DNA of 64,000 nt from Sutcliffiella horikoshii DSM 8719. Lineage in GTDB: Bacteria; Bacillota; Bacilli; Bacillales; Bacillaceae_I. This document shows positions 23,574 to 47,594 of the stretch, piece by piece. The notes below the pieces were generated by a model. The model was not told where the DNA came from and did no database searches. It saw nothing but the letters and a program-made list of their open reading frames with translations. The stretch lies in contig LQXN01000067.1 of NCBI GenBank assembly GCA_001648575.1, forward strand, positions 310,001 to 374,000. Direction: 5' to 3'. Made by a program: the position numbers and the translations under genes. The first letter of the stretch is position 1; each line of letters opens with the position of its first letter.

Positions 23574-23826
23574 AACAGTGGGACATTCCCACTGTTCAGT
23601 GTGTAGACAAAGCTCTTTTCGAGTTATAAAATCCCAGTTGATCGTAGTGGAAGGAGCGTAGACTCCTGCGGGAGGAAGGGAAAGGAAGACCCCGCAACGA
23701 AGTGAGGAGGCTTACGGACCGCCCGCTGGAAAGCGAAGCTCCTGCAACGGAGGTCAACCGTTCCAACTGATAACCGAACTAATTTTAGTTTGTCAACAGT
23801 CTGAACAGTGGGATATTCCCACTGTT
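23574..23826. repeat. Family A repeat bracketed by two copies of the bshC terminator hairpin
   Basis: The element spans 23596-23804 (209 bp). Its ends TCAGTGTGTAGACAAA and TTTGTCAACAGTCTGA are an imperfect inverted repeat. The left hairpin (23574-23596, CAGTGGG-ACATT-CCCACTG) and right hairpin (23804-23826, same stem with loop ATATT) differ by one base, in the loop. The right hairpin followed by T is 5 bp after the bshC stop. The core has strong self-complementarity and no coding potential. Confidence 0.85.
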
Positions 23827-23830
23827 TTCG

Positions 23831-25459
23831 TTAGATCCTTATTACTTTATGTTTTCCATTGTGATCTAAAGGTAGTTCGCATAGTCGTTGGACAAAATCG
23901 AGCCCGTATCTATTGAGAAAATAGCATATATTCCATACCCGCTCCTGAGGCATCCCCTTTGGAAGCAAAGCAAGCTCCACCCGTTCATATTTCTTCATCA
24001 TAATTTCATGTTTTTCATATGCAGATCGTTCCATTAACCTTTGAATGAAAGAAAACTGTTTATCAATTAATGACCAATTCTTTTCAAATGTTGGTTTCAT
24101 GTGTGGCAACACCTCATTGCCAACTTCCCGGAATTTATCATGTACATCCTTATATTCCGCTTGATAGGATGAAAGTGTACTTTCCAAAGATTCCAGCTCC
24201 TGTTTATAGAGCCATGCCTTGCGCTTTTCTTCCAACCCGTTTTCCAGAACTTCCTGGACCGTTTCATCAATTTCCTTCATCGTGCTTTCAATATGCCGTT
24301 CTAATAATGTCAATGAAATCCTTGGTACAACCGGCGGCATTTCCAATTCTACGGATTGAAAACATCGACCCAGTTCTGCCCAATAACTGATTTCACCCGG
24401 ACCACCAATAAAAGCAAGCGTAGGAAAAAGAAATTCTTGCATCAATGGCCTGGTTACTACATTGTTGGAGAAATTCCATGGTTCTTCCTCTACCTTTTTT
24501 TCAAGCTGCTCCATCGTAAAATTCCAATTAGCATCTTTTGTAAAAGCAACCTGTTTGTGTTCATCCCAAAAAAGCAGTTCCCTTTCTCCTTTATGATGAT
24601 AAAAGAGATTCATGGATTCTGTATCCACTTCTAGCATTGTAGGGAAATCCAACTCCTGTAATTCAGTCTGTGAGTGTTGAACTCCCTGGCCAATCTGTTC
24701 ATGGCAGGCTAACATTCTCTGCAGATAAGGAGTTTCCAATTTTCTTAGGTCAGGATCGGCAGCATTCACCAAAACCAGCCCTGTTCCTTTAAACAGATGA
24801 GTAATCATGTTAGCAAAAACATCCACAAATGTAGAAGAAGACTGAATATGTTGCTCGAGTACATCTTTTAGCTCTGCAGTAAAAGTAGTCTCTCCATATG
24901 AGTTAATGATTGAATGCAGCCAAGAATTCATCTTTTCTTTTTCATAATCCAAATCTGATATCATTTTTTTTCCGGCTTCCTTCATATGGAACGTTTGCTT
25001 CTCGATATCATTCCCTCTTGGAATGTTTACATGATTTATTTCTTGAAAATCATGATCTTCCCCGGCGATCCAAAAAACAGGAATGACGGGAACTCCCAAT
25101 TTAGAGGTTTGTTCTTGAGAAAGCCTGATAATACTGATTATCTTTGATATCGTATAGATCGGACCTGTTAATAATCCTGCTTGTTGACCACCAATCACTA
25201 CAAGGGAGTCTTCATCCTTCAATTTTTCAATATTATGTATTGTACTTGCATCTGCATTGTAACGTCCGTTAAATTCAATCAGGTGGGAAGCAAGCTCTTC
25301 TCTTCTGAAGATTTTATTCTCCAAATTCCTTTTTCTTTCAGTAAAAACATCCGGGGAGAATGGATTATATGTAAAAAAGGGGAGGATGCTCTCCTTTTGA
25401 GCTGAATATGCGGATGAAAATTTATTAATAGTAGGGAGCATTAATTCTACTACATTCAT
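23831..25459 (-). CDS. bshC: Bacillithiol biosynthesis cysteine-adding enzyme BshC
   Basis: A 542-residue BshC family protein (start ATG 25459, AGAAAGGAAG upstream; the longest frame adds nine residues without a ribosome binding site). Family stretches: VVIGGQQAGLLTGPIYT, PVFWIAGEDHDFQEINH, and a long C-terminal coiled coil (about 430-490). BshC is thought to add cysteine to GlcN-malate in the last step of bacillithiol synthesis. It sits upstream of mraZ, as in B. subtilis (yllA). Confidence 0.95.
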   Translation of the reverse strand: MNVVELMLPTINKFSSAYSAQKESILPFFTYNPFSPDVFTERKRNLENKIFRREELASHLIEFNGRYNADASTIHNIEKLKDEDSLVVIGGQQAGLLTGPIYTISKIISIIRLSQEQTSKLGVPVIPVFWIAGEDHDFQEINHVNIPRGNDIEKQTFHMKEAGKKMISDLDYEKEKMNSWLHSIINSYGETTFTAELKDVLEQHIQSSSTFVDVFANMITHLFKGTGLVLVNAADPDLRKLETPYLQRMLACHEQIGQGVQHSQTELQELDFPTMLEVDTESMNLFYHHKGERELLFWDEHKQVAFTKDANWNFTMEQLEKKVEEEPWNFSNNVVTRPLMQEFLFPTLAFIGGPGEISYWAELGRCFQSVELEMPPVVPRISLTLLERHIESTMKEIDETVQEVLENGLEEKRKAWLYKQELESLESTLSSYQAEYKDVHDKFREVGNEVLPHMKPTFEKNWSLIDKQFSFIQRLMERSAYEKHEIMMKKYERVELALLPKGMPQERVWNICYFLNRYGLDFVQRLCELPLDHNGKHKVIRI

Positions 25460-25543
25460 AAAGTACTTCCTTTCTGAATCGTTCATATATGATTATTCCT
25501 TCATGAGTATAGCATTGATTTGTTTTGTTTCAAAAAAACTTGC

Positions 25544-25939
25544 TTACACAAATGTTTCATAAATTCGTTTTATGACACCAAACGCAGCAAGCAAGAAATA
25601 AGCCAGGAAGAACAGTAGAAAATTCAATCGCCAAAACCCTTTAAACACTTTCCCAAAACGTATTTCTTCCCTGATTTTGTATTGCGCCAAAACCATTACT
25701 GTAGCAATTGCCAGTAACATTGTCAGAATGACCCCCAACAATGACTTCTCCCATATTATGATAATAAGGAAGTGGACAGCGATGATAAAGAAAACAGTGG
25801 AGGCATCTACAGCTACATGGAAGGACTTTTTATTACTTCCCGTAACAAATCTAGTGATAAAATATATAGCAAACATCGCAAAAATAGGAACTGTAACAAT
25901 AGTGGCAAGCGTTCCTGCTAAAAATCCGGACATCCCCAT
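25544..25939 (-). CDS. DUF3397 family membrane protein
   Basis: A 131-residue protein with about four membrane segments (residues 6-28, 42-62, 66-86, 102-125). Small proteins of this type are commonly found between panE and bshC in Bacillus. AATGAGGTAG precedes the ATG, 5 bp after panE stops, so it is probably cotranscribed with panE. The function is unknown. Confidence 0.75.
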   Translation of the reverse strand: MGMSGFLAGTLATIVTVPIFAMFAIYFITRFVTGSNKKSFHVAVDASTVFFIIAVHFLIIIIWEKSLLGVILTMLLAIATVMVLAQYKIREEIRFGKVFKGFWRLNFLLFFLAYFLLAAFGVIKRIYETFV

Positions 25940-25944
25940 CTACC

Positions 25945-26856: not shown

Positions 26857-27098
26857 CAGGACCCCTTCTTTATACCTATTTTTTCTTATTGTACCAATAT
26901 ATGCAGTTTAATTGTACTCCTCATTTAATCTTTAACACTTATTTACCCATACATAAATCCTCAGTGTATAGAAAGGGGGATACTCATAAAAACGGGTAAC
27001 ATTAGCCAACAGTTCTATTTAAATTCAATAACACATCACTTCCAGGAGCTGTTGTCTTCGGTATAATGGATACCAACATAGGTGTTGTTGAAATAAAA

Positions 27099-27128
27099 AT
27101 GCCCAGTGCAATTTATAGCACTGAGCAT
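27099..27128 (-). terminator. Terminator of the acyl-CoA carboxylase operon
   Basis: ATGCTCAGTGC and GCACTGGGCAT (minus strand, one G-U) pair over 11 bp and are followed by TTTTTATTT. It lies 10 bp after the carboxyltransferase stop codon. Confidence 0.88.
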
Positions 27129-27137
27129 TCTGGTGTC

Positions 27138-28682: not shown

Positions 28683-28718
28683 TCTATTCCCCCGCTTTCT
28701 CATCAACGTTGTAAAAGG

Positions 28719-28931: not shown

Positions 28932-28966
28932 GATCATTTCCTCCTGATTTCTTGTTGTAATTATAT

Positions 28967-30310: not shown

Positions 30311-30397
30311 GAAGTAATCCCCTTTCAAAAGAACTTTCCTCAAAAAATCTCTAACAAACTACTATTTCTACATAATTCCTTGTTTTCCTTCTTCTTT

Positions 30398-30411
30398 TGC
30401 AAACGCTTTCT
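30398..30411 (-). promoter_or_regulatory. Cre-like operator (CcpA) upstream of the acyl-CoA carboxylase operon
   Basis: TGCAAACGCTTTCT matches the catabolite-responsive element TGWAARCGYTWNCW at 13 of 14 positions, on both strands because the site is nearly palindromic. It lies 88 bp before the biotin carboxylase start and 117 bp before divergent ylbP. A weaker match (GGTAAGCGCTTTAA, 30488-30501) lies closer to ylbP. Confidence 0.7.
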
Positions 30412-31123: not shown

Positions 31124-31141
31124 TTTATTTACGGATTTTCT

Positions 31142-31621: not shown

Positions 31622-31871
31622 CCACCCTTTGGAAAGGTGGCCACTGAAAAAGTAAATATTTTAGTTATCTGTTTCATACCGCTGTTGATTTCCGCAAACG
31701 GCTGCGCTTTCCGCGGGGCGACCTTGAGCCTCCTCGGGCTGCGCCCTGCGGGGTCTCAAGATTGTCGCTACCCCCCCCGCAGGAGTCTTCGCCTATTGCT
31801 CCAATCAACAGCTAGAAATTCAAAATAAGATTAGTTTTTTTGTTTTTCAGAGGCCTCTTGGAAGGGTGGCC
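31622..31871. repeat. Divergent terminator-bracketed repeat (subtype B) downstream of ylbO
   Basis: The element spans about 31644-31850, beginning CTGAAAAAG and ending TTTTTCAG. Its core (CGCTTTCCGCGGGGCGACC, TCTCAAGATTGTCGC) resembles family A in composition and plan but not base for base. It is flanked by CCACCCTTTGGAAAGGTGG on the left and a related GGAAGGGTGGCC sequence on the right; the left copy followed by T on the minus strand is a good ylbO terminator, the right copy is eroded. Confidence 0.7.
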
Positions 31872-34446: not shown

Positions 34447-35691
34447 ATGAAATCGCTAGGTGTGATAGTTGAATATAATCCTTTTCATAATGGGCATTTG
34501 TTTCATTTGACAGAATCCAAAAGGCAAACAGGTGCTGAGTTGGTCATAGCCGTAATGAGCGGACAATTCCTTCAGCGCGGTGAGCCAGCTCTTGTCTCTA
34601 AATGGACACGTACAAAAATGGCTCTGAAAAATGGAATAGATATTGTCGTGGAATTGCCTTACGCTTTTGCCACCCAGAAAGCTGAATTGTTCGCCAGCGG
34701 TTCAATTTCTATCCTCTCAGGTTTAAAGTGTGATTCCGTTTGTTTCGGCAGTGAACAAGGTAATATGGAGGATTTTCAAAAAACAATATCCTTGATGGAT
34801 AACGAAAAGGAAAAACATGATTTTCTTGTACAAACATTCATTGGACAAGGTTACAGTTTTCCAAAAGCATCCTCTCTTGCTTTTTTGAAAGTGACGGAAG
34901 ACATGAATGATATCCTGGATTTAACCAAACCAAACAATATTCTTGGATATCATTATGTAAAGGCAATCCAAGAACAAGAAAGCACTATGCAGCCCTTTAC
35001 TATTGAGCGGACAGGTGCTGGTTACCATGATCCTGAGTTTAATGATACTCCCATTGCTAGTGCCACCAGCATCAGAAAACATCTTTTTGATAACAATGGG
35101 AATATTGAAAAGGTGCAGCGCTTTGTACCTGAAAAAACATATGAACTTTTAAATCACTATTTGTACAAGGTCGGCAGCTTTCATCAGTGGGAGGACTATT
35201 TCACCCTTTTGAAATATCGTATACTTTGCAGTACCCCAAATGAACTCGCTGAAATCTATGAAGTAGAAGAAGGACTTGAACACCGGGTAATTCATACTAT
35301 GAAAGAAAGTATGAATTTCAATGAATTCATGACAAAGCTGAAAACCAAGAGATACACCTGGACTAGGCTTCAGCGGATGTGTACACATCTTCTTACCAAC
35401 ACAAGAAAAGAAAACATGCTGGATGTTTCTTCATCCAAGAGAAGCGAATATATCAGGCTGCTCGGTATGAGCAGAAAAGGGCAACAATACTTGAAACAGA
35501 TAAAGAAAGATGTAGAGATTCCTATTTTATCAAAGGTTTCTGGAGTGGATAGCCATATGCTTGACATGGATATCCGTGCTACCAGTACATATGCAATGAA
35601 ATTCAATGAGCCCGCACGAAGTGAATGGATGCAGCAAGAATTCTCCAAACCTCCTATCAGATACGATGAAGAAAAGGAATGCTTTCTTTAA
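34447..35691 (+). CDS. tmcAL: tRNA(Met) cytidine acetate ligase TmcAL (YlbM)
   Basis: A 414-residue nucleotidyltransferase-fold protein. The adenylation motif HNGH occurs in VEYNPFHNGHLFHL at the N-terminus. The B. subtilis homologue (YlbM) activates acetate with ATP to make N4-acetylcytidine at the wobble base of elongator tRNA-Met. Length and N-terminus agree with the family. It is divergent from ylbN and convergent with ylbL. Confidence 0.95.
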   Translation: MKSLGVIVEYNPFHNGHLFHLTESKRQTGAELVIAVMSGQFLQRGEPALVSKWTRTKMALKNGIDIVVELPYAFATQKAELFASGSISILSGLKCDSVCFGSEQGNMEDFQKTISLMDNEKEKHDFLVQTFIGQGYSFPKASSLAFLKVTEDMNDILDLTKPNNILGYHYVKAIQEQESTMQPFTIERTGAGYHDPEFNDTPIASATSIRKHLFDNNGNIEKVQRFVPEKTYELLNHYLYKVGSFHQWEDYFTLLKYRILCSTPNELAEIYEVEEGLEHRVIHTMKESMNFNEFMTKLKTKRYTWTRLQRMCTHLLTNTRKENMLDVSSSKRSEYIRLLGMSRKGQQYLKQIKKDVEIPILSKVSGVDSHMLDMDIRATSTYAMKFNEPARSEWMQQEFSKPPIRYDEEKECFL

Positions 35692-35712
35692 AACAGGAGA
35701 TTCATACTAAAA

Positions 35713-35981
35713 AACGCCTCACAATCTTATGTGAGGCGTTTCAGTGTGTAGACAAAGTTATTTTCTAGTTATAAATCCCCTGTTGATTGTAGTGGAAGGA
35801 GCGTAGACTCCCGCGGGAGGAAGGGACATGGGAGACCCCGCAGGCGAAGCCGAGGAGGCTCCCGGACCGCCCGCAGGAAAGCGAAGCTCCTGGAACGAAG
35901 ATCAACAAGAAAATGCAATTTCTAAAGATAATTAGGGTTTGTCATCAGTCTGAAACGCCTCACAATCTAATGTGAGGCGTT
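35713..35981. repeat. Family A repeat bracketed by two copies of the tmcAL/ylbL terminator hairpin
   Basis: The element is 35741-35953 (213 bp) with ends TCAGTGTGTAGACAAA and CATCAGTCTGA. It is bordered exactly by two 28-bp copies of the hairpin AACGCCTCACA...TGTGAGGCGTT (35713-35740 and 35954-35981) that differ at one loop base (CTTA versus CTAA). Because the stem is symmetric with A and T runs, each copy can end transcripts from both convergent genes. Confidence 0.9.
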
Positions 35982-35991
35982 TTCCTGTTAA

Positions 35992-37014
35992 TTATGATTT
36001 CGGATCCAATTGCTCCAAATATTCGACTGCTTCATCAAACGTGTCAACAGGGACAATTTTCATTGTTGTTTTTATATCTTCTGCAGCAACTATGGCCTCT
36101 TGATAATTAGATCCCTCAGCTCCCTTTTCGTTTGGAGCGAAGAATATATCCACGCCAGATTTATCAGCTGCTACTATCTTTTGTGCGATACCACCAATTC
36201 TCTGCACTTCTCCATTCTCATTGACGGCTCCTGTACCGGCTATTTGATATCCTTTTGCTATATCTTCTTCTAATAGCTGATTATAGATTTCCAGTGAGAA
36301 CATCAACCCTGCAGAAGGTCCTCCAATTTGAGCTGTGTTGATTGTAATGGGCGGATTCATTGTTATTTCATAATCGGTCAACAAACTTATACCAAGTCCA
36401 GCACGATTCGGGTCTTCCGGATGTTCCCCAAGGGTGATGGCTGTTGTTTCTTCTTTTTCATCCCGATCAAATGTAAGGACAATTTCATCACCTATCGACT
36501 TTTCCCCTACAAATTCCATCAGATTCTCTGCAGTGGCAGTAGCTTTTCCGTCAATGTGAGTAATTCGATCACCTATCTTGAGCTTTCCTTCGGCTGCCAA
36601 GCCTTCTTTTACGCTAAATACGTAGACGCCCTTGGAGAGCATTTCCACTTCTTTCCCGGCTTTTTCATAGGCAATTTTAATGGCCGTTTCTTTAGAACTT
36701 TCCATCATATGTAGCTGCCGATAGGAGTATTCTTCATCAGATTCATCTTCTGAGCGAATTTGGTTAATAGGGAATATATTCTGATATTCACTTACCTTGG
36801 CAATGGCATAGGTGAATATGTTCGCCTTCCCCATCTTGACGGTCGTCAGCATGAAGCTTCCTTCGTCTTCAAAACCACCTTCAACAGTTACAAGGGGTCT
36901 TAGTACTTGTGCATCACCAGGACGAGTCACATAATAGGGCAAAGTCACAAAATTCAGGATGACTGCAAGTACTATCCCTATTAGCAGGGATCTCATTATA
37001 TATTTACTTTTCAT
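35992..37014 (-). CDS. ylbL: YlbL family membrane serine protease (PDZ and Lon-like S16 domains)
   Basis: A 340-residue protein: N-terminal membrane anchor (8-26), PDZ domain (about 125-190) and a Lon-like protease domain. The catalytic Ser234 is in GGPSAGL and Lys279 in GGIAQKI, the same numbers as in B. subtilis YlbL. YlbL with CtpA degrades the DNA-damage cell-division inhibitor YneA in B. subtilis. It overlaps ylbK by 11 bp. Confidence 0.96.
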   Translation of the reverse strand: MKSKYIMRSLLIGIVLAVILNFVTLPYYVTRPGDAQVLRPLVTVEGGFEDEGSFMLTTVKMGKANIFTYAIAKVSEYQNIFPINQIRSEDESDEEYSYRQLHMMESSKETAIKIAYEKAGKEVEMLSKGVYVFSVKEGLAAEGKLKIGDRITHIDGKATATAENLMEFVGEKSIGDEIVLTFDRDEKEETTAITLGEHPEDPNRAGLGISLLTDYEITMNPPITINTAQIGGPSAGLMFSLEIYNQLLEEDIAKGYQIAGTGAVNENGEVQRIGGIAQKIVAADKSGVDIFFAPNEKGAEGSNYQEAIVAAEDIKTTMKIVPVDTFDEAVEYLEQLDPKS

Positions 37015-37801
37015 GTTGATGTTTCTCCTTCCACTCCTCTAGCAACTTTCTGATATAAGGGATTTGTAATCTTGTTGCTTCTTCACCGATTCGAATTATT
37101 TCATCGATGTTGGTAAATGCCCTTGAGCTGTAATGTGCCACAGATGGCCTGATCATGATATCCGCTTCAAGTTCACTTCGCTTCACCAGTTCATTTTGCA
37201 TGATATCAATTGTCTGCATAATCACATCAAATATCGAATCAACCGGTTCATTTGTTTTTACTTGGGATACATCAATGGCAATGACAATATCCGCTCCCAT
37301 TTCCTTTGCCACGCTGACAGGAACACGATCAACGACCCCGCCATCCACCAACAGGCGTCCATTTACCTTTTCCGGTACAAATATTCCCGGAATGGAGATG
37401 CTCGCCCTTACAGCATCAGAAATTGGCCCAGTTGTAAAAACCACTTTTTCCGCTCTTTCCAAATCTGTCGTGACAATGGAAAGTGGGATGTCCAAATCTT
37501 CAATGTTTTTATTTTGTGTAAACATGCGGATCAGTTCCTTTACCCTGTTACCGCTAACAAACCCCATTTTGGGAACAGTAAAATCCAAGTAATATTTCCG
37601 TTTGAAAGCAGTGGCAATTTTATAAAGGCGGTCCATGTCATGACGCATGGCATAAAAACTGCCTACTAGAGCTCCCATGCTGCTTCCTGCAATCAGATCA
37701 ATGGGAATATTCTCTTCCTCCAATACTTTTAATGCACCTAAATGTGCAAATCCACGTGCACCACCAGATCCCAATGCAATTCCTATTCTAGGTTCCTTCA
37801 A
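37004..37801 (-). CDS. ylbK: Patatin-like phospholipase family protein YlbK
   Basis: A 265-residue patatin-fold protein (RssA type). The oxyanion loop is GSGGARG at 11-17, the nucleophile Ser41 lies in GSSMGA and Asp153 in VDGGVVD, giving a complete Ser-Asp dyad. The start is TTG 37801 with GAGGTGATG upstream. Substrate unknown. It precedes and overlaps ylbL. Confidence 0.92.
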   Translation of the reverse strand: MKEPRIGIALGSGGARGFAHLGALKVLEEENIPIDLIAGSSMGALVGSFYAMRHDMDRLYKIATAFKRKYYLDFTVPKMGFVSGNRVKELIRMFTQNKNIEDLDIPLSIVTTDLERAEKVVFTTGPISDAVRASISIPGIFVPEKVNGRLLVDGGVVDRVPVSVAKEMGADIVIAIDVSQVKTNEPVDSIFDVIMQTIDIMQNELVKRSELEADIMIRPSVAHYSSRAFTNIDEIIRIGEEATRLQIPYIRKLLEEWKEKHQHEK

Positions 37802-38139
37802 GTCATCACCTCAAGCTGTTTACAGCCACCTATTTGCTGGACAGCAACCAAAGTCTCTTACCGTTATCCTTTGATAACTTCTTTCTATTTATCATACGCT
37901 TTTCCTTTTTCTTGGTGAACAAACTATGAAGACTTGGGTCAATTTAGGTTCTAATTCACTGCCCCATCCACGTATATTGAAAGGTAAGGTAGCTGGACAA
38001 CCTAGTTGCCACTGTATGGGTAATTAATATTATTCTAACAAAAACCCAATCATTCTTGTACAAAAAGATATCCCGAAAATCTAACGCAGAGCGCGTGACG
38101 GTTTTATATCGATGTATTTTAATCAAGGGGGTTAACTGC
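37802..38139. other. Divergent intergenic region between ylbK and ylbJ
   Basis: About 340 bp, AT-rich. It must hold promoters for both genes. No confident sigma-A or sigma-E promoter, repeat or RNA gene was identified. A frame opening at TTG 38056 joins ylbJ but lacks a ribosome binding site. Confidence 0.5.
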
Positions 38140-39378
38140 TTGGATTCTTCAAAATGGAAAACACTGTTTTTTGCTATTATTATTTCCCTACTTACCCTAT
38201 CTCTTATTCTAAACCCTCAAGCTTCTTTTCAAGCCAGTGTAAGGGGTCTCAATATGTGGTGGGACATTGTATTTCCATCTCTCCTTCCATTTTTAATCAT
38301 TAGTGAGCTATTGATTGGTTTCGGTGTAGTTGCTTTTATAGGGGTCCTTCTCGAACCGTTCATGCGCCCTCTCTTCCGGGTGCCAGGTGTCGGTGGCTTT
38401 GTCTGGGCAATGGGAATGGCTTCGGGCTATCCTTCAGGGGCCAAGCTAACTGTTAGGCTCCGACAGGAAAACCAAATCACCCAAATAGAAGGGGAAAGGC
38501 TTGTTTCCTTTACCAATTCCTCCAATCCTCTATTTATTTTCGGAGCGATTGCAGTTGGTTTTTTTCATAATCCTAAAGTGGGGATAATTTTGGCTGCCGC
38601 TCATTATATCGGAAATATATGCGTCGGCTTAGTAATGCGGTTCTATGGCCCACACTACAAGGCAAGGCGGCAAGATGAGGCATCTGATTCATTTAAGAAA
38701 GTTTCCCTAAGGAAGGCTTTCTCTGAGCTTCATAAAACCCGTTTGAAAAACAATAAACCGTTGGGAAAATTGCTAGGTGATGCCGTTCTGTCTTCGGTAC
38801 AAACTTTACTTATGGTCGGTGGCTTCCTCATTTTATTTTCTGTTCTGAACAGTATGCTGTCTCTCGTTTCCGTTACAGCCATACTAGCAGGGATCATCAG
38901 TTTATTACTGACACTGCTTGATATTTCAAAAGATCTTAGCTACCCACTCATATCAGGCCTATTTGAAATTACACTTGGTGGTAAACTGACAAGTGAGGTC
39001 AAGGGTGTAAGTTTAATGGAGCAGATTATTGTAACGAGCTTCTTCCTTGCATTCAGCGGCTTCTCTGTCCAAGCACAGGTTGCAAGTATACTGGCAGAGT
39101 CCGATATTCGATTTAAACCCTTTTTCCTTGCCCGCATTTTGCACGGAACATTTGCTGCAATCATTACTTTTATCCTTTGGGGCCCATTGGAGCGAAAACT
39201 GAATGGATTTGAAAGCGTAAGTGGTGAGGTTCCCGTTTTCTCCCCAATTGTCCCAGAAGGCTTCTGGGAGGATGTGTTAAACCTATTTCAACTGTACGGG
39301 CCTATTTTTACCATTTCCATGCTCTGGATTTACCTGTACCTTCTCATTAAGAGGAACCATATAAAAAACCAGCACTGA
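38140..39378 (+). CDS. ylbJ: Sporulation integral membrane protein YlbJ
   Basis: A 412-residue polytopic protein with two nucleoside-recognition (Gate-like) halves: NMWWDIVFPSLLPFLIISELL near the N-terminus, MASGYPSGAKL and a C-terminal FSGFSVQAQVASI. TTG 38140, 8 nt after AAGGGGG, is chosen. In B. subtilis YlbJ is sigma-E controlled and needed for normal spore formation. Convergent with coaD. Confidence 0.92.
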   Translation: MDSSKWKTLFFAIIISLLTLSLILNPQASFQASVRGLNMWWDIVFPSLLPFLIISELLIGFGVVAFIGVLLEPFMRPLFRVPGVGGFVWAMGMASGYPSGAKLTVRLRQENQITQIEGERLVSFTNSSNPLFIFGAIAVGFFHNPKVGIILAAAHYIGNICVGLVMRFYGPHYKARRQDEASDSFKKVSLRKAFSELHKTRLKNNKPLGKLLGDAVLSSVQTLLMVGGFLILFSVLNSMLSLVSVTAILAGIISLLLTLLDISKDLSYPLISGLFEITLGGKLTSEVKGVSLMEQIIVTSFFLAFSGFSVQAQVASILAESDIRFKPFFLARILHGTFAAIITFILWGPLERKLNGFESVSGEVPVFSPIVPEGFWEDVLNLFQLYGPIFTISMLWIYLYLLIKRNHIKNQH

Positions 39379-39396
39379 TATCTAAATCAGTGCTGG
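39369..39396. terminator. Bidirectional terminator between ylbJ and coaD
   Basis: CCAGCACTGAT and ATCAGTGCTGG pair over 11 bp. It overlaps the ylbJ stop codon; A-rich sequence on the left provides the T-run for the minus strand. Confidence 0.82.
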
Positions 39397-39403
39397 GAAG
39401 ATT

Positions 39404-40466
<1,063 letters not shown>

Positions 40467-40615
40467 TGTATCACCATACTTTATTTCTAGAATGCCAATC
40501 ATCAATATCCTATCATATTCGACAAGAAATTCAAAAGTATTTCTCAAGCTCTTGAAAGATTGATTTAACTAATATCCATTATTTGAAGTCTTCCTGTGGA
40601 TTATTATGTTGCGAA

Positions 40616-40868
40616 GGGAGCAAGGAAACGTCGAGCGTCGCCCGGACATGCTCTCTATAAGATAAAACTAATGTGTATAGCATTCTCTAATTTTGTTCAT
40701 ACTGAGTTATAACAACATCCTTTCGTGTGATGTTGTTGCCAACCGCGGAGAAGACTTACGTTTCCCCATAAGTTCTTCCTCCGGTTTCTCCTCTCCCTTT
40801 GCCTTCTTAACCTTGATTTTTCAAGGGATGGAAGGACCCTGCCCGGACATCCGAGCAGGGTTTTTTTT
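40616..40868 (+). ncRNA. Candidate structured small RNA ending in a terminator
   Basis: Five hairpins follow one another on the plus strand: 40616-40655 (GGGAGCA/TGCTCTC), 40711-40737 (AACAACATC/GATGTTGTT), 40741-40786 (AACC-GGAG-AAGA-CTTA with TAAG-TCTT-CTCC-GGTT, small bulges), 40811-40826 (CCTTGA/TCAAGG), and 40837-40860 (CCCTGC/GCAGGG with inner CGG/CCG) followed by eight T. No annotated plus-strand gene needs this terminator. Both neighbours are on the minus strand. No promoter was identified with confidence and no known RNA family recognised. Confidence 0.5.
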
Positions 40869-40880
40869 AGATTCCAATTA

Positions 40881-41201
40881 TTAGATCGGAAGATCAAAAT
40901 CAACCAAACCGTCTAGAGGTGCTTCACATTGAATCATGCACACCTCACTCCATTCCCCTTCACTCATCAACCCTTTCTCTGAGACATACCCTTCAAGCTC
41001 TTCTAAACTGCTATTTTCCAATTGTTTTTCTTCATCCTTTGAAAGCAATCCTTCAGATACTAAGTAGTATAGAATACCGGTAACAAGCATCCCTTTGATA
41101 GGCAGTCCATTTACCTTTTCAGCAGGCTTTTTTCCAAAAAAATGATCATGGACATACAATATTATCATGCTTGCAATTAGCACCAAGGTAAACCACATCA
41201 T
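40881..41201 (-). CDS. Small membrane protein of unknown function
   Basis: A 106-residue protein with one N-terminal membrane segment (about 1-18) followed by a soluble, acidic region rich in Glu and Leu (KDEEKQLENSSLEELEGYV) and ending LDGLVDFDLPI. ATG 41201 is set by GGGAGG upstream. It has the look of a short anchored protein with a SHOCT-like helical tail, but no family was recognised. It sits between rsmD and an unknown plus-strand gene. Confidence 0.7.
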   Translation of the reverse strand: MMWFTLVLIASMIILYVHDHFFGKKPAEKVNGLPIKGMLVTGILYYLVSEGLLSKDEEKQLENSSLEELEGYVSEKGLMSEGEWSEVCMIQCEAPLDGLVDFDLPI

Positions 41202-41303
41202 CGGCAAACCTCCCTCTTTGTTTGGATTCTCTTCAATTTTCCAAGTTTACATGGTAAAGTATGTTTTGTGTAAAGTACGAGCTGCTTTGAGAGGAGAAAA
41301 AAT

Positions 41304-41693
41304 ATGATACAACGATTTATAGAACTTGGAGAAGGGTATTCTGATATATATGAGCTTTTGGAGGTGGCAAGAAGCAATAAAGACAGACTGAAACACTTGA
41401 TCATGCTGCATACCGTCAAAAACGGACGGGATGTGTCTTCGTTTGTAGCAGTAATGAATCCTACAAATCCGGGGGATTTCCAAGCCCTTTATATTTGTTT
41501 GGAAGGCATTCCTAATCATAAACTCCAACCAAATAAACGAGCTGAACTTTTTCAAGAAGTAGCAAAGGAACTAGACAAGGAAATCATTCAATTTGATGTT
41601 AAACCTTCAGATACTTTTGCTGAAAAAGAGCTTTTTTTTCAGTATTTAATCGGTATACTGCGGTTAAATCATTATATTCCCGCATTAAGATAA
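41304..41693 (+). CDS. Conserved hypothetical protein, possibly DUF7147 family
   Basis: A 129-residue soluble protein beginning MIQRFIELGEGYSDIYELLEVA. GAGAGGAG precedes the ATG. It has no membrane segment or known catalytic motif. It resembles a small Bacillus family that has been misannotated as methylthioribose kinase; from memory this is DUF7147, which I cannot verify. Located divergently from the preceding membrane gene and convergent with ylbG. Confidence 0.75.
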   Translation: MIQRFIELGEGYSDIYELLEVARSNKDRLKHLIMLHTVKNGRDVSSFVAVMNPTNPGDFQALYICLEGIPNHKLQPNKRAELFQEVAKELDKEIIQFDVKPSDTFAEKELFFQYLIGILRLNHYIPALR

Positions 41694-41707
41694 TCATGAA
41701 ACATAAA

Positions 41708-41746
41708 AAGCAGTACAAAACCTAATTCCTTAAGTTTGTACTGCTT
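41708..41746. terminator. Terminator between the DUF7147-like gene and ylbG
   Basis: AAGCAGTACAAA pairs with TTTGTACTGCTT over 12 bp, preceded by A and followed by T-rich sequence, so it can act in both directions. Confidence 0.85.
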
Positions 41747-41799
41747 CTTCTATACTTTTACAAAAGTCCATTTTCCTCCAACTTGGGAAAGGAGTCTAT

Positions 41800-42075
41800 C
41801 TATAAGCCCATTTTGTAATCATATTCCTTCGCTTTATCAGGTCTTGAATTTTCATAATGAGTTTTAATGGAGGGTTTATGGGATACCTCCACTTTCTTGA
41901 CATAGGATTGCCTGTTCAGTTTCTCCACAAGCGCATCTGTATCTTCGCTGTTACAATAGAACAGGACATATTTTAGTTTTTTGGATATATAAATGACATT
42001 TCCGTACCGTCTTAATAATTTGGCTTGTTTCAGAGAATGAAGCCATACGACAATGCCTTGTCTTTGTGATAGCAT
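41800..42075 (-). CDS. ylbG: YlbG family protein (DUF2129)
   Basis: A 91-residue protein (MLSQRQGIVVWLHSLKQAKLLRRYGNV...) matching the YlbG/DUF2129 family in length and in the conserved stretch ISKKLKYVLFYCN. AAGGGG precedes the ATG. Function unknown. Confidence 0.9.
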   Translation of the reverse strand: MLSQRQGIVVWLHSLKQAKLLRRYGNVIYISKKLKYVLFYCNSEDTDALVEKLNRQSYVKKVEVSHKPSIKTHYENSRPDKAKEYDYKMGL

Positions 42076-42267
42076 AGAATTTACCCCTTTATAATGAATC
42101 TTTCACTTTATATATGGTTGTTTTCTTATACCTAGTAGCTTTTTCGCATTAATTTATATATAAACGTATTATTTTATAGTTTAGCATGAATGGAAATATT
42201 ATGACATAGTTTAAGCAATCGAAATATGAGAATATTCCTTCACTAATTTTAGGAAAGGGTGTTTCTG

Positions 42268-42603
42268 GTGGAACTCGAGCAAATCTGGGATACGTTTCTG
42301 GAAGAACTTAATAAAAATGAACTGGTAGTAGATTGCTTTCATAAAAAAGTAGCAGGTATACCATTTTTATATGTACAAATTCAAACTGGCCATGTATTCG
42401 GCTGGGAGGAAAAGGGGCGATCTTTTATTCATGTATGCTCAAAAAAAGCAATGTTTAAAAAAAAGGTGACCGCTGAAACTCATTTTTTTCGTCGCCAGGA
42501 TAATCTCTTTGTTTACCGGCATCGGTTCTATGTACCACAAGAAAAAATGTTCTGTTGTGGAAATCTTTGTGAAGATTGTATCCGATTAAGGAAAAAAGCC
42601 TGA
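42268..42603 (+). CDS. Hypothetical protein with C-terminal Cys cluster
   Basis: A 111-residue soluble protein. GTG 42268 is taken as start because AGGAAAGGG lies 8 nt upstream. The C-terminus carries CCGNLCEDC, four cysteines that could bind a metal. No family was recognised. It is divergent from ylbG and convergent with ylbF. Confidence 0.65.
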   Translation: MELEQIWDTFLEELNKNELVVDCFHKKVAGIPFLYVQIQTGHVFGWEEKGRSFIHVCSKKAMFKKKVTAETHFFRRQDNLFVYRHRFYVPQEKMFCCGNLCEDCIRLRKKA

Positions 42604-42650
42604 AAAAAGAAGCTGCAACGTCACAGCTCCTCTAGTATTTCCATAGCTTT

Positions 42651-43103
42651 TTAGCTAGCTTTGCAGCCACATCCGCCACCAGAACCGCAACCTCCGCCGC
42701 AGCTTGTCATGGAATCGAAAAACGGATTTCCTGTAGGGACTTTTACGTTATCCGACACTGCCTTCCCAATCATTACACTTATTTCATCCAAGGTTTTTTG
42801 GATGGCATCCTCCGCTTCCTTGAAAGCGTGAATGGTTTCGTGAAGATCCACCTTCCGCTTCAATTCACGTGTTTCGAGGGTTACTTTACGATAATCAGGA
42901 TGATACTTCCCGAATCTCTGCACTTCCTCATATCTTTCTTTTATAGAATCAAAAGCACGTATAAGCTCCTGTGCTTCTTGGTCATGTTGTAAATTATATA
43001 GACAGCGATGATAGTCTTCAGCAAGCTCGGACTGCCAAATCATCTTCGCCAATTCTTCTGCTTTTTCGACCATTTGAACATGCTCAAAAGTAGCAATCAT
43101 CAT
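42651..43103 (-). CDS. ricF: RicF/YlbF, subunit of the RicAFT (Y-complex) RNase Y regulator
   Basis: A 150-residue YlbF family helical protein (start ATG 43103, GGAGGTG upstream). Conserved stretches RFGKYHPDYRKV and VKVPTGNPFFDSM are followed by a C-terminal cysteine cluster CGGGCGSGGGCGC that in B. subtilis helps hold a [4Fe-4S] cluster. With YmcA (RicA) and YaaT (RicT) it steers RNase Y mRNA cleavage and affects sporulation, competence and biofilm entry. Confidence 0.94.
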   Translation of the reverse strand: MMIATFEHVQMVEKAEELAKMIWQSELAEDYHRCLYNLQHDQEAQELIRAFDSIKERYEEVQRFGKYHPDYRKVTLETRELKRKVDLHETIHAFKEAEDAIQKTLDEISVMIGKAVSDNVKVPTGNPFFDSMTSCGGGCGSGGGCGCKAS

Positions 43104-43169
43104 GGAATACACCTCCAACACCATCATACCATGTTTTAGCAAAGAAGTGTAATAGCCTTATTTAAGGAA

Positions 43170-43598
43170 TCAAATCTCCACACGGAAGATTTCTTCAATA
43201 CCATACTCTGACTCGTCATTATGCAGCAACAAAACTTTGATTTCATGCATGCCTTCTGGGATGCCCTTTAAGATGAATGCACCACTTGTAAAAGTATCAA
43301 ATCGTTTTCCATCAAGAAAGACCGCTACCTGTCCCTCTCCATGTTTTTTCTTGTTTTCCTCAGATTGAAAATGAAAATCAGGAGTAACAATACACTCCAT
43401 ATAAATATTGGAGCCTTTTACTCGATGATGAACAGCCATGGAAAGTCCCTTTTGCTTGCTTCCGGATTGGTGTGAGAGCACCTCCATTACTTCCCCTGGT
43501 GAACTCACTTCACTTTCGGGTTTCTGCTGATCTTCCTTACATCCACCAAGGGTGATGGTGAATAGACAAATAAGGATTAGAATTAAGTTTTTCTTCAC
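43170..43598 (-). CDS. Putative lipoprotein, unknown function
   Basis: A 142-residue protein with a signal peptide and lipobox ITLGGC (Cys at about 20). The mature part has an Ig-like beta pattern ending FILKGIPEGMHEIKVLLLHND, reminiscent of domains that present a small beta sandwich outside the membrane. The start is GTG 43598 with AAAGGAGAG upstream. It has no counterpart in the B. subtilis ylb cluster and was not assigned to a family. Confidence 0.75.
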   Translation of the reverse strand: MKKNLILILICLFTITLGGCKEDQQKPESEVSSPGEVMEVLSHQSGSKQKGLSMAVHHRVKGSNIYMECIVTPDFHFQSEENKKKHGEGQVAVFLDGKRFDTFTSGAFILKGIPEGMHEIKVLLLHNDESEYGIEEIFRVEI

Positions 43599-43681
43599 AA
43601 TTTACTCTCCTTTCTTAAACTGTATTAGCGTTAGTTTGGGAAAGGAGAAACCATTCTATGCGAATAAGCATCAATTAAAAA

Positions 43682-44188
43682 AGCTCCCATAGTTATATGG
43701 GAAATTCAGATTGTTGACAAACCATAAAATTGTAAGGTTATCTGTTGGAACAAGTTGATTTCCGTTGCAGGAGTTTCGCTTTCCAGCGGGCGGTCCGTAA
43801 GCCTCCTCACAACGTTTCAGGGGTCTTACCAGTCCCTTCCTCCCGCAGGAGTCTACACTCCTTCCACTACAATCAACAGGGAATTTCTATCTCGAAAATA
43901 ACTTTGTCTACACACTGAAGCTCCCATAGTTATTTGGGAGCTTCAGACTGTTGACAAAGCCCTAAATATTTTTAAATTTGCATTCTGCTGTTGATCTTCG
44001 TTCCAGGCGCTTCGCTTTTCGCGGGCGGTCCGGAAGCCTCCTCGGGCTTACGCCCTGCGGGGTCTTCCCTGTCCCTTCCTCCCGCAGAAGTCTGCGCGCC
44101 TTCCACTACGATCAACACAGGTTTTGCATATCTCAAAGATAAAATAACTTTGTCTACACACTGAAGCTCCCATTATTATGTGGGAGCT
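43682..44188. repeat. Two family A repeats in tandem separated and flanked by three ylbE terminator hairpins
   Basis: The elements are 43706-43918 (213 bp) and 43943-44164 (222 bp), both in inverted orientation (TCAGATTGTTGACAAA or TCAGACTGTTGACAAA at left, TTTGTCTACACACTGA at right). Three 24-bp hairpins of type AGCTCCCATAGTTAT...GGGAGCT lie at 43682-43705, 43919-43942 and 44165-44188. The outer left copy has lost its GCT end. The right one is the terminator directly after ylbE. No coding potential. Confidence 0.9.
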
Positions 44189-44198
44189 TGTTAAGGTG

Positions 44199-44438
44199 TC
44201 AATCCATGTTTTTCATTGTTTGGAACATATGGACCATCATGGAAGCCATTTGAACGGAGTTTTGAAACTTCTCCACTTTATGTGGGATTGTCTGTTTGTA
44301 ATAATGCATGGAGGATAATTCAAAGTCATTTAGCTTCTCGGGATTTCTTGTCAAGGTCCTATACCATAAAGGTTGTTCCCTTAAGTAGCTTTTTAACGTT
44401 TTCTTTTTTTGAATGTACTCATAGAGGTCTTTTCTCAT
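44199..44438 (-). CDS. ylbE: YlbE-like protein
   Basis: A 79-residue protein starting MRKDLYEYIQKKK (ATG 44438, GGATGAG upstream), containing REQPLWYRTLTRNP and ending with a Met-rich helix (SVQMASMMVHMFQTMKN). It matches YlbE in length and position next to ylbD. Function unknown; probably cotranscribed with ylbD, 15 bp upstream. Confidence 0.9.
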   Translation of the reverse strand: MRKDLYEYIQKKKTLKSYLREQPLWYRTLTRNPEKLNDFELSSMHYYKQTIPHKVEKFQNSVQMASMMVHMFQTMKNMD

Positions 44439-44453
44439 GTATCTCATCCATTC

Positions 44454-44855
44454 CTAGTCTTTTCGAAATGAAAACGGATTTTTTGCACCTTGTGCAGTAG
44501 AACTTCCTTTCCCTGTGGTCGGGATGAACTGCTGGATCAGTTGCTGGATATTGCCGATAGCCGAATTGACATTCGTTAAATGATACTGCATTTGATTCAT
44601 ATCCATTTTCTTCAACGATTGCAGCAATTGAGGAATAACATCAGATTTTGCTCCCTTGTCAGATGTTTTATCCTCTCCAGCACCATCTTCGCGGAAGCTC
44701 TTCCAACTTTCATCCTCCTCCCCGATCAGGTACCATTCCTCAAATAATTCCTGCCATGTTTTCTTTTTGCTTTTTACTTCCTCTGACAGCTTCGGGTGCT
44801 TTTTTACAAACTCCTTGAACTTTTCTATGCTAGGATGTTTTTGTTTAGTTGCCAT
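44454..44855 (-). CDS. ylbD: Spore coat protein YlbD
   Basis: A 133-residue YlbD family protein (KEFVKKHPKLSEEVKSKKKTWQ, then VIPQLLQSLKKMDM and a C-terminal FIPTTGKGSS). B. subtilis YlbD is a coat protein made under mother-cell control. GAGAGGTGAG precedes the ATG. Confidence 0.9.
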   Translation of the reverse strand: MATKQKHPSIEKFKEFVKKHPKLSEEVKSKKKTWQELFEEWYLIGEEDESWKSFREDGAGEDKTSDKGAKSDVIPQLLQSLKKMDMNQMQYHLTNVNSAIGNIQQLIQQFIPTTGKGSSTAQGAKNPFSFRKD

Positions 44856-44992
44856 TCTCTCACCTCTCTTCTACATATATGCCTAGTTTATTTTATTGTA
44901 AGAAGGAAAAAAGCGTTCGCCTATTTTTCTTTTCTTCCGTCCCTTCCATTGTTAAGATGTAAATAGACTTTTGAGAAGAAAGAAGGACTAAA

Positions 44993-45481
44993 ATGATGGA
45001 TATCAGTCAGCAATGGGACAATTTTTTAAATGATGCAACAGAAGAAGAGATAGAGGCGGCTTCCTTATTCCTTGCCAGTATGGAAAGAAAAAGAGCTGGG
45101 TTAAATGGCACTCATATAGGGGCATTGATGGGAATAACGAGCGAATATCAGGAACCTGATACATTGACAATGGAGATCCCCAACACAGTACTTTTACAAA
45201 ACTCCCTTGATATCTTACATGGGGGCTTAACTGCTACTTTGCTTGATTCGGCAATGGGGACCCTTGCATTCAAATTGATACCAGAAGATAAAGCGGCCGT
45301 TACAACAGAAATGAAGGTTAATTACGTAGCAAAAGGAGTGGGCAAACATTTCAAATGTGTGGCTTCTGTCATACACAAAGGGTCCAAGCTACTTGTAATG
45401 GAAGGGAAAGTTTATCGCAGTGATGGTGCTCTAATTGCACATGCGACCGGAAGCTTTTTTGTGATTTCAAAGAAAAGCTAG
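44993..45481 (+). CDS. PaaI/hotdog-fold thioesterase
   Basis: A 162-residue hotdog protein with the helix motif ILHGGLTATLLDSAMGTLA, whose His-Gly-Gly and following Asp form the typical active site, and KVNYVAKGVGKHFKC. It probably hydrolyses acyl- or aroyl-CoA; the substrate is not clear. It is the first of a two-gene plus-strand operon divergent from ylbD. Confidence 0.88.
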   Translation: MMDISQQWDNFLNDATEEEIEAASLFLASMERKRAGLNGTHIGALMGITSEYQEPDTLTMEIPNTVLLQNSLDILHGGLTATLLDSAMGTLAFKLIPEDKAAVTTEMKVNYVAKGVGKHFKCVASVIHKGSKLLVMEGKVYRSDGALIAHATGSFFVISKKS

Positions 45482-45496
45482 GAAGGGAGAAGGATA

Positions 45497-45871
45497 ATGG
45501 TTACTGCTGTAGTCATTCCTATTCTGATTATTTACTTTTATTGGATAACAAGAAAAGAGGCAGGTAAACAGAAGGAACGATGGGAAAACCTTTGTAAGTT
45601 CCCCCTGGAATCAAGGGTGGAAGGAAAAGTAATTCAACTAAATACGGAACGGAAACGTTTCTACCATCAATTATATACGCTGGATACTACCATTCGGATA
45701 CAAGGTAGTGATAAAACCATAACTGTTGTACATAAGCAACCGTTCATGTCTTCAACCCAGTCCCCTTCCATTTCGCTTGGTGAGCACATAATAGTAAATG
45801 GACGTTGGGAAAACGACCTATTCCTTGTGGGAGAAATCATTACAAAAAACAAAGAAGGACAGCCCAAGTAG
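45497..45871 (+). CDS. Hypothetical membrane-anchored protein
   Basis: A 124-residue protein with one N-terminal membrane segment (residues 2-17) and a soluble beta-rich domain, perhaps OB-like (GKVIQLNTER... then GEHIIVNGRWENDLFLVGEI). AAGGGAGAAGG precedes the ATG, 15 bp after the thioesterase, so they are likely cotranscribed. No family recognised. Confidence 0.7.
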   Translation: MVTAVVIPILIIYFYWITRKEAGKQKERWENLCKFPLESRVEGKVIQLNTERKRFYHQLYTLDTTIRIQGSDKTITVVHKQPFMSSTQSPSISLGEHIIVNGRWENDLFLVGEIITKNKEGQPK

Positions 45872-45886
45872 AGTGGCTGTCTTCTT
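45853..45886 (+). terminator. Terminator of the thioesterase operon
   Basis: AGAAGGACAGCC pairs with GGCTGTCTTCT (one bulge), followed by TTTT. The stem overlaps the last codons of the preceding gene. Confidence 0.75.
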
Positions 45887-45891
45887 TTAAT

Positions 45892-46075
45892 AAGGCTCTT
45901 TTCTCAAAGATTGTTGCTAATTATGGATGAAAAGTCGGCAATTGGACTTTTGCTTTCATAGTCTTGAATTTGCAAGAAGTATTCATAGCATAACAGGGTA
46001 AAGAGCACGATAGTAAGTAATATAACGGGCTGATTGGAAAATACGAAAAGCAACAAAGTATAAGAAAACAGCCTT
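45892..46075 (+). repeat. Family C repeat, intact copy 1
   Basis: A 184-bp element starting AAGGCTCTTTTCTCAAAG and ending AAGAAAACAGCCTT; the ends are inverted repeats (AAGGCT[C/G]TTTTCT). It aligns along its whole length with the reverse complement of 50340-50524, sharing GAAAAGTCGGCAATTGGACTT, ATAGTCTTGAATTTGCAAG and TAACGGGCTGATTGGAAAAT. It starts 6 bp after a terminator. Confidence 0.88.
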
Positions 46076-46121
46076 CAATAATGTTCTTTTCTCATATATT
46101 GGTGAGTGGAAAGTCGCGGTA

Positions 46122-47183
46122 CTACCAAGTTTCGATGAAATTCTGAGTATAATACTTCTCATTTACACCAACACCCAAATGCGTAAATCTTGGATTAAGC
46201 AACGTGTTCCTGTGCCCCTCACTATTTAACCAACCTTCAACAGCAGCAACCCCATCAACATACTTTGCAGCGATATTCTCACCTGCAAGGCGAAACGCTA
46301 CATCCCCTTCCATTAACCTGTCTGTCAAAGTTCCTCTTGTGGGAGAGGTATGGGAAAAGTAGTTGCCCTGCCTCATATCCTTGCTATGTGAGTAGGCTAC
46401 TTCAGCAGTATCTCCATCCCATTTTACTGGATCAAGGTCAAAACGGGCTCTTATTATGTTTGTAAAATCGATGATCTGCTTTGCATTGCCTTCCTCCACC
46501 ATTGTCCATTCCTCTACTGTCAGCTCCCTTGCATCAAGCAAAGGACCTCTATAAACAAGCTCATATGGTCGCTGTTTTATTAATGTTTCATCATTCATAT
46601 ACCGTACACTCGACAACTCTTGTTCAAAGTCATCAAAATATAGTTGTACATACATATCCTCCACCTTGATTAAGGGGCGGGTCTTCATTTCTTCAGGCTT
46701 TATCTGAAATTGATAGGATCCATCCTTATGATCCACTGTAACGCTCTCAGAAAATCCATATTTTTCATTCAATGATTCATAGGATTGTCCTATTTCAAAC
46801 AATTCATGTTTGTTCTCATTTCCTGTCCCGAAAACGGTCACTACTTTTCCGTCACTTACTCCAAATTGCATATAATTTGCTAGGTTCTGGTTGTATATCC
46901 ACCATTCATAATCATAGGAAGATAAGTCTTTTCGGTCAGGTTCACCAAAATCGTCCACCAAATCACCTGCATTTTTTCCCATATAAGAAGCCAAACCATC
47001 TATATTTTCATTCATCTGAATTTCTGATTGAACAAATGCTTTTTCCTCTGATTCTCTTTTTTCGGGGGTAATCTGACCACTAAGAGGTTGTTCCTTTATG
47101 AAACTTTCTAATTCATGAGGTTCAACATTTACAAATAGATACAAACAGAATGCTATAAACAATAAGAAGAATAAACCTCTCAT
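46122..47183 (-). CDS. ylbC: CAP-domain protein YlbC
   Basis: A 353-residue protein with an N-terminal membrane segment or signal (1-18), a CAP-associated middle domain (about 60-210) and a C-terminal CAP/SCP domain with the signatures YSHSKDMRQGNYFSHTSP, RLAGENIAAKY and WLNSEGHRNTLLNPRFTHLGVG. These are extracytoplasmic domains of unclear activity in Bacillus. Position corresponds to ylbC. Confidence 0.92.
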   Translation of the reverse strand: MRGLFFLLFIAFCLYLFVNVEPHELESFIKEQPLSGQITPEKRESEEKAFVQSEIQMNENIDGLASYMGKNAGDLVDDFGEPDRKDLSSYDYEWWIYNQNLANYMQFGVSDGKVVTVFGTGNENKHELFEIGQSYESLNEKYGFSESVTVDHKDGSYQFQIKPEEMKTRPLIKVEDMYVQLYFDDFEQELSSVRYMNDETLIKQRPYELVYRGPLLDARELTVEEWTMVEEGNAKQIIDFTNIIRARFDLDPVKWDGDTAEVAYSHSKDMRQGNYFSHTSPTRGTLTDRLMEGDVAFRLAGENIAAKYVDGVAAVEGWLNSEGHRNTLLNPRFTHLGVGVNEKYYTQNFIETW

Positions 47184-47330
47184 TCACTATTTCCCTCCCT
47201 TTTCTTTCATTATATTTAATAGTAGGCTTTTCATTCCACTTTTAAGTTTTAGTAGATACTGGTAGAGTTATCCTATATATACCCTTATTGAAAAAAAAGA
47301 ATACTTTTTTCAATTTGTACAAATAAAAAA

Positions 47331-47594
47331 ACTGGATTCTCTTGGAATCCAGTCAGTGTGTAGACAAAATTATTTTATTTTGAGATATGCAATACCTATG
47401 TTGATCGTAGTGGAAGGCGCGCAGACTTCTGCGGGAGGAAGGGACAGGGAAGACCCCGCAGGGCGAAAGCCCGAGGAGGCTTCCGGACCGCCCGCGAAAA
47501 GCGAAGCGCCTGGAACGAAGATCAACAGCAGGATGCAAATTTAAAAATTTTTAGGGCTTTGTCAACAGTCTGACTGGATTCTCTTGAATCCAGT
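47331..47594. repeat. Family A repeat bracketed by two copies of the ylbB terminator hairpin
   Basis: The element is 47353-47573 (221 bp) with ends TCAGTGTGTAGACAAA and TTTGTCAACAGTCTGA. The left flank CTGGATTCTCTTGGAATCCAG and right flank CTGGATTCTCTTGAATCCAG are the same hairpin less one loop base. The right hairpin lies 14 bp after the ylbB stop. The core ends GTTGATC and GATCAAC are complementary. Confidence 0.9.

Follow-up and report, generated by a model that had tools for sequence, protein, structure and literature searches.

A repeat inserted between two copies of a hairpin

The window analyzed here, 64 kb of the genome of Sutcliffiella horikoshii DSM 8719 (contig LQXN01000067.1, positions 310,001 to 374,000), contains five copies of a small repeat of 207 to 220 bp. 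Each copy lies between two similar hairpins, and the sequence of the hairpin is specific to the site. The repeats are miniature inverted-repeat transposable elements (MITEs), transposase-less derivatives of insertion sequences (IS) of the IS1182 family. A mobile element that duplicates gene-end hairpins of any length suggests an enzyme that reads the shape of DNA and not its sequence. The elements and hairpins of the window, numbered from its first base, are the following (open reading frames, ORFs, are predicted reading frames throughout).

23574..23596, left copy of hairpin 1, 23 bp, one mismatch to the right copy, within the loop
23597..23803, plus strand, MITE copy 1, 207 bp, CAG..CTG, downstream of ORF 23831-25486 (minus strand)
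23804..23826, right copy of hairpin 1
35712..35741, left copy of hairpin 2, 30 bp, stem identical or close to that of a lone hairpin at this site in genomes G002, G006, G007 and G012
35742..35952, plus strand, MITE copy 2, 211 bp, between the convergent ORFs 34447-35691 (plus strand) and 35992-37014 (minus strand)
35953..35982, right copy of hairpin 2, also picked up by a terminator scan
35782..35905, plus strand, structured core of the MITE, about 124 nt, present also at the left end of many elements of the IS1182 family
43681..43706, outer left hairpin of the tandem pair, 26 bp, with decay in its 3' arm
43707..43917, minus strand, MITE copy 3, 211 bp
43918..43943, middle hairpin of the tandem pair, shared by copies 3 and 4
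43944..44163, minus strand, MITE copy 4, 220 bp, downstream of ORF 44199-44447 (minus strand, 82 amino acids)
44164..44189, outer right hairpin of the tandem pair
47331..47353, left copy of hairpin 5, 23 bp, also in the terminator scan; similar lone hairpin in genomes G012 and G015
47354..47572, plus strand, MITE copy 5, 219 bp, downstream of ORF 47608-48021 (minus strand)
47573..47594, right copy of hairpin 5, 22 bp as against 23 bp on the left

A preliminary description of the window had reported five copies of the repeat, and all five are present; their ends, CAG...CTG, sit one base inside the limits it gave on each side. Its claim that a site-specific hairpin borders every copy on both sides agrees with what we observed at all five, the middle hairpin being shared where two elements and three hairpins alternate (hairpin-element-hairpin-element-hairpin, 43.7-44.2 kb). 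The duplicated unit is indeed the hairpin and varies in length, measuring 23, 30, 26, 26, and 23/22 bp at the five copies with the corrected ends. Each copy adjoins the 3' side of an ORF of at least 82 amino acids, in line with the earlier statement that every copy is directly 3' of a gene. The window had also been said to lack a transposase, which we can confirm for PF13751, the one transposase family searched there: none of the PF13751 matches of the host genome falls within the window.

Hairpin duplication across the host genome

We then considered the whole host genome, a draft of 4.68 Mb in 67 contigs. With at most two mismatches, the MITE ends (CAGTGTGTAGACAAA / CAGACTGTTGACAAA) matched at 185 (5' end) and 172 (3' end) places, compared to 2 each for reversed control patterns. 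Among the loci fetched, distinct copies with both ends (at most three mismatches) 100-520 bp apart and at least 45 bp of flank numbered 112, a large subset of the copies rather than all of them. A direct repeat was called at a score of at least 12, and scoring was gapped, since ungapped scoring undercounts repeats with indels. Flanking direct repeats, of locus-specific sequence, were found in 103 of the 112 copies, whereas none of 500 mismatched flank pairs qualified (maximum score, 8.5). The repeats were 18-40 bp long (median, 26), and in 97/103 a whole single hairpin reached to within 2 nt of both repeat ends, versus 50/515 shuffles. Given these two controls, chance is excluded as a source of the flanking repeats. 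The genome-wide tabulation of flanks that the preliminary description had proposed therefore bears out its reading at these 103 copies.

The pairing offset was the same at both repeat ends in 86 of the 103 sites. Left and right repeats were identical at 36 copies, differed at one or two positions at 45, and differed more at 22. When hairpin pairs of equal length were compared, 66 of 549 loop positions differed but only 45 of 1,886 stem positions, in keeping with the earlier observation that differences between duplicates fall mainly in loops. Tandem arrays with a common middle hairpin, which we count in favor of hairpin duplication, occur both in the window and at L092 (453-959), where two elements alternate with three identical 25-bp hairpins.

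Empty sites in the genus

Empty sites were read in same-genus relatives, ten at site 35742 and twelve at site 47354. At site 35742, the stem of the single hairpin is identical or almost so in G002, G006, G007, and G012, and diverged single hairpins stand there in G001, G003, and G008. Genome G013 has a lone hairpin beside other repeats, and in G011 a repeat of a second MITE family (see below) lies inside the hairpin. The same left hairpin in G015 is followed by the element, reversed in orientation and interrupted by a member of the second family; this element, read on its left side only, is best taken as an independent hit. At site 47354, one similar hairpin is present in G012 and G015, and the single hairpin of G005, G011, and G014 differs in sequence; in the remaining seven relatives, which were not called, the site is occupied by other repeats. 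The empty sites that could be read thus carry one hairpin, as the preliminary description had anticipated, and an empty site already carrying two hairpins, which it had named as contrary evidence, did not occur. A match to the 5' end (at most one mismatch) was found in 9 of 16 genomes of the genus, abundantly in G000, G005, G012, and G015, and 7 were without a match.

Full-length relatives encode a DDE transposase

The preliminary description had proposed looking for a longer relative with the same ends that encodes an enzyme, for example of Y1/RAYT or DDE type. Such relatives exist, and the enzyme is of the DDE type, from the IS1182 family. An intact element of the same genus (L105) encodes a transposase of 448 amino acids and has the same 30-nt hairpin, AAAGCACTTGTCTAAAAAGACAGGTGCTTT, on both sides. 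Against the NCBIfam IS1182 model NF033551 (cut-off, 270 bits), L105, L115, and L107 scored 477.4, 479.8, and 482.7 bits, respectively, and PF13751, PF01609, and PF05598 were above their cut-offs in the transposase of the relatives (DDE-type domain). Three residues, D150, D277, and E404, are invariant across 13 transposase sequences, and we infer that they form the DDE triad. No solved structure was related by sequence to the transposase, the two matches having E values of 0.18 and 0.27.

To extend the count to full-length elements, the best 80 of 505 relatives were fetched from named genomes. Six loci had no recognizable end pair and eight had cut or N-filled flanks, leaving 66 that could be analyzed. 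Of these, 61 were flanked by a direct repeat of 19-42 bp; the repeat comprised a whole hairpin in 61/61 and its two copies were identical in 58/61. In Bacillus sp. OV166, 11 copies of one 1,738-bp element occupy 11 distinct hairpins, and their repeats measure 19-33 bp. Hosts among the best 80 include Cytobacillus, Neobacillus, Domibacillus, Lysinibacillus, Priestia, Saccharibacillus, Ureibacillus, and a Tissierellia metagenome-assembled genome. Duplication of the hairpin is thus a property of the full-length relatives (61/66) as well as of the MITE.

These copies bear on two other accounts of the flanking hairpins. One is that the hairpins were duplicated after insertion, by gene conversion or slippage, or were carried by the element itself, and the substitutions and indels in some copies, together with the decay of the second hairpin at times, could be read that way. 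The hairpins are locus specific, however, the same local hairpin stands at the empty sites, and nearly all full-length elements have identical copies, which makes this account highly improbable. The other is that a single-strand transposase (Y1/RAYT, HUH) moves the element, since hairpins and extragenic palindromes recall the REP/RAYT systems. REP, RAYT, and HUH elements are defined by a Y1 HUH transposase and have neither terminal inverted repeats nor target duplication; to our knowledge, no HUH system duplicates its target. The element studied here has both, and its full-length relatives encode DDE transposases, so that we consider a Y1/RAYT enzyme scarcely credible.

A broken IS1182-family gene between related ends and hairpin copies is present in the host genome (L099). 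Two other loci of this genome were evaluated as the autonomous partner and rejected. The pair of MITE ends lying 1,987 bp apart on contig 60 (L091) belongs to a single MITE split by an IS110-family element, and a locus on contig 67 (L100) scored 262.8 bits, just below the IS1182 cut-off, and has no such ends. At L091 (812-2798), the IS110-family element sits inside the MITE core.

The MITE retains the ends and a structured core

Fourteen of 15 positions at each end of the MITE match the full-length elements L317, L325, and L331. The 1.72-1.76-kb IS1182 elements carry a module of about 124 nt between their left end and the transposase gene, and the same module forms the middle of the MITE, the right end of which corresponds to the IS left end. 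It is because both the ends and the core are common to the full-length elements that we assign the MITE to the IS1182 family. By nhmmer, 34 of the 80 named loci have the module directly upstream of the transposase; 11 of these 34 are copies in one genome. The left ends of full-length elements L273, L298, L317, L325, and L331 show a hairpin followed by a T-run and are terminator-like.

The core has a strongly covarying structure. Across 28 cores selected from 295 hits, both positions had changed in 62 pair-cells, far above the shuffles (19.8) and the slid controls (17 at most). Pairing was possible in 96.8% of cells, a value biased upward in that the structure was derived from the same alignment, and further pair types were not above shuffles (22 versus 20.3). 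The core had no Rfam match; a permissive search of copy 2 returned RsmY at 21.7 bits (gathering score, 57), which we take as chance. The sole match in the window at Rfam gathering scores is a ylbH leader (RF00516, 40743-40870, minus strand, 110.7 bits), which points to a Bacillales host. The module is GC-rich and occurs also in the second MITE family and, without recognized ends, in relatives. Our guess is that it may keep read-through from entering the transposase gene.

A member of the second MITE family lies at 31622-31869 of the window, with ends CCACTGAAAAAGT / TTTTTCAGAGG (31641-31853) and similar, imperfect hairpin halves on both sides. The core of this family is homologous to that of the first. 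Its ends (CACTGAAAAA) gave 15 pairs, many of which fall inside cores of the first family; the flanks scored at least 8 in two pairs, with a whole hairpin in one of these. Hairpin duplication by the second family is not established, and this counts against a simple extension of the rule.

Terminator context and choice of target

An A-rich tract before the left hairpin or a T-rich tract after the right one (at least 4 of 6) was present at 90 of the 103 MITE sites, and both were present at 34. From the positions of the tracts, the right copy keeps the T-run of the original terminator and the left copy its A-run.

We put at roughly 75% the probability that an IS1182-family DDE transposase joins these elements into an extruded terminator cruciform, duplicating the whole hairpin, with the MITEs moved in trans. 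Several results weigh against this. Nine of the 112 MITE copies had no clear duplication, among them L005 and L140, with unrelated hairpins on either side, and L155, which lies beside another element; copies without flanking repeats, the other kind of contrary evidence named beforehand, are thus not the general case. The same was true of 5/66 IS copies (L266, L267, L268, L308, and L324), some of which look like wrong end calls or rearranged copies. The repeat ended within the stem, with pairing continuing outward, in 62 of the 103 MITE cases and in 29/37 IS cases (the latter from a smaller set in which 43 were analyzed and 37 had repeats, 37/37 being whole hairpins and 34 identical), which makes a cut at the foot of the hairpin too simple a description. 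Repeats opened with A in 90/103 and closed with T in 93/103, so that sequence plays some part, either as a preference or through the A- and T-runs of terminators. A terminator scan of 35000-48500 returned 13 sites versus 11.4 in shuffles, no excess, although three of the 13 are hairpins flanking the MITEs. Where one tract only was present, MITE and IS elements were oriented 52 versus 34 (P = 0.066), and a strand effect is possible. Finally, no intact IS1182 element with MITE-type ends was found in the host draft genome, in which L099 is the only, broken, candidate.

Two other kinds of target have been considered. The transposase might bind the palindrome in linear, double-stranded form, by way of the twofold symmetry, and cut with a variable stagger, with no cruciform, and both the symmetric repeat ends and the weak A...T consensus would suit such binding. 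The stagger would, however, have to span 18-42 bp, about two to four helix turns, and range from 19 to 33 bp with the single element of OV166; beyond the terminal A and T there is no common sequence to read. We regard this alternative as unlikely. Somewhat less likely again is a hairpin formed on one strand only, in lagging-strand DNA, a transcription bubble, or RNA, and tied to the polarity of replication or transcription. The terminator-like targets, with their A- or T-rich tracts, and the lean in orientation speak for it, but that lean is not significant, the repeats are symmetric about the hairpin center at 86 sites, and a DDE element is known to join both target strands. The preliminary description had left the target as hairpin DNA or RNA. 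The hairpin stands, and the lack of a significant orientation bias relative to the T-run tips the balance slightly toward DNA.

A proposed cruciform model for hairpin duplication

A non-autonomous element that targets hairpins by their structure and duplicates them, as the preliminary description had suggested, is supported by the repeats at the MITE copies, the single hairpins at empty sites, and the full-length relatives. DDE transposases join the 3' ends of the element to opposite target strands, and the spacing of the joining points, which sets the length of the duplication, is usually typical of the enzyme. The MITE is an IS1182-family insertion sequence minus its transposase gene, with ends and structured core kept. 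In the model that we favor, an IS1182-family DDE transposase would act in trans, inserting MITEs into intrinsic terminators chosen by their fold. The palindrome would extrude as a cruciform, so that both DNA strands form hairpins, and the two 3' ends of the element would join at symmetric places in the 5' arms of these hairpins. Gap filling would then leave one whole hairpin on each side. The joining points would meet at the four-way junction, giving a duplication as long as the hairpin with no fixed count of bases. Hairpin-centered repeats of 19-33 bp with one element (OV166) are hard to obtain in linear DNA, whereas in a cruciform the points lie close together at any arm length. Joining in the 5' arm would duplicate the hairpin and joining in the 3' arm would delete it. 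Because many repeats end within the stem, partial extrusion, or cutting some pairs away from the junction, would need to be allowed.

With an A-run at the left copy and a T-run at the right, the genes on either side may retain a usable terminator; if so, duplicating a bidirectional terminator gives each neighbor a working one of its own. If the cruciform model is true, these insertions would also amount to a record, left by nature, of cruciform extrusion at terminator palindromes in vivo.

A lineage that does not duplicate

Genome G029 holds 15 places of a distant IS1182 lineage, in which the transposase is larger (564 amino acids at L126; 410 bits against the IS1182 model at L338). Fourteen were fetched, and the 13 that share a 1.85-kb element were examined, L337 being left out. 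None of the 13 copies had a direct repeat (scores of at most 5.5). Their outer flanks were complementary over at least 6 bp in 7/13, versus 17% of mismatched pairs, in a test that permits boundary shifts and may include bases of the element ends. Such complementarity is expected from replacement of an inner hairpin, as published for IS1272. In a transposase tree of 38 rows (up to 46 were named, and short or unrecognized ORFs were dropped), duplicating and non-duplicating rows fell on opposite sides of a branch; the tree does not date the change, its branches being long and its four non-duplicating rows all belonging to a single genome.

A broader account has, in our estimate, about even odds: that a DDE lineage uses a cruciform target, so that the fold of the target and not the enzyme sets the length of the duplication, while a distant lineage of the family takes the mirror option at the junction and loses the hairpin; that a working terminator left to each neighboring gene allows the MITEs to exceed 100 copies as near-neutral passengers of 3' untranslated regions; and that the core is an undescribed structured RNA or DNA aiding the element.

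Comparison with known systems

We compared these elements with published systems, as far as the accessible parts of the papers describe them. SMR-A of Haloquadratum (PMC3119063) is likewise a small transposase-less repeat that enters palindromes, but it is given without target duplication in those parts; the PATEs of the same organism are small and transposase-less but lack terminal inverted repeats and have IS605-type relatives (PMC3119063). MITEPye1 of Paracoccus is also a MITE with IS1182-type ends, but it is reported to have 4-bp direct repeats, and the accessible text does not describe hairpin repeats (PMC11578231). The same holds for the IS1182 member ISPse1, with a table entry of 4 that we take as repeat length (PMC3281130). 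The portions consulted of PMC9208149 and PMC10969869 contain nothing on hairpin duplication.

The closest system is IS1272/TnSha1, from the IS1182 family, the targets of which are hairpins, several of them terminators, with no sequence consensus (Furi et al. 2016, PMC4923244; Wan et al. 2017, PMC5678879). In the passages available, the stem-loop is deleted or replaced and there is no target duplication (PMC4923244, PMC5678879). Wan et al. (2017) drew duplication and deletion as alternative pathways for IS1272, duplication by attack at the 5' foot being a model only (Fig. 13, pathway b; PMC5678879). Work from 2015 cited in both IS1272 papers possibly concerns the same target behavior, with no detailed data according to Wan et al. 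(PMC5678879). Hairpin targeting by IS1182 members is therefore already known. A prior report of hairpin duplication as an observed outcome was not found in the open-access literature (subscription journals and ISfinder lay outside the search), and what appears to be new relative to that literature is that a large lineage regularly duplicates the whole hairpin, at a length dictated by the target, and that a MITE with over 100 copies makes use of it. Duplications of 18-42 bp that equal the hairpin argue for recognition of DNA shape, and action at a four-way junction, by a common transposase family. The elements described here share sequence-independent hairpin targeting with IS1272 but have the opposite outcome, duplication (103/112 and 61/66) rather than deletion, and with the two outcomes in two lineages of one family, the question of what decides between them is directly testable.

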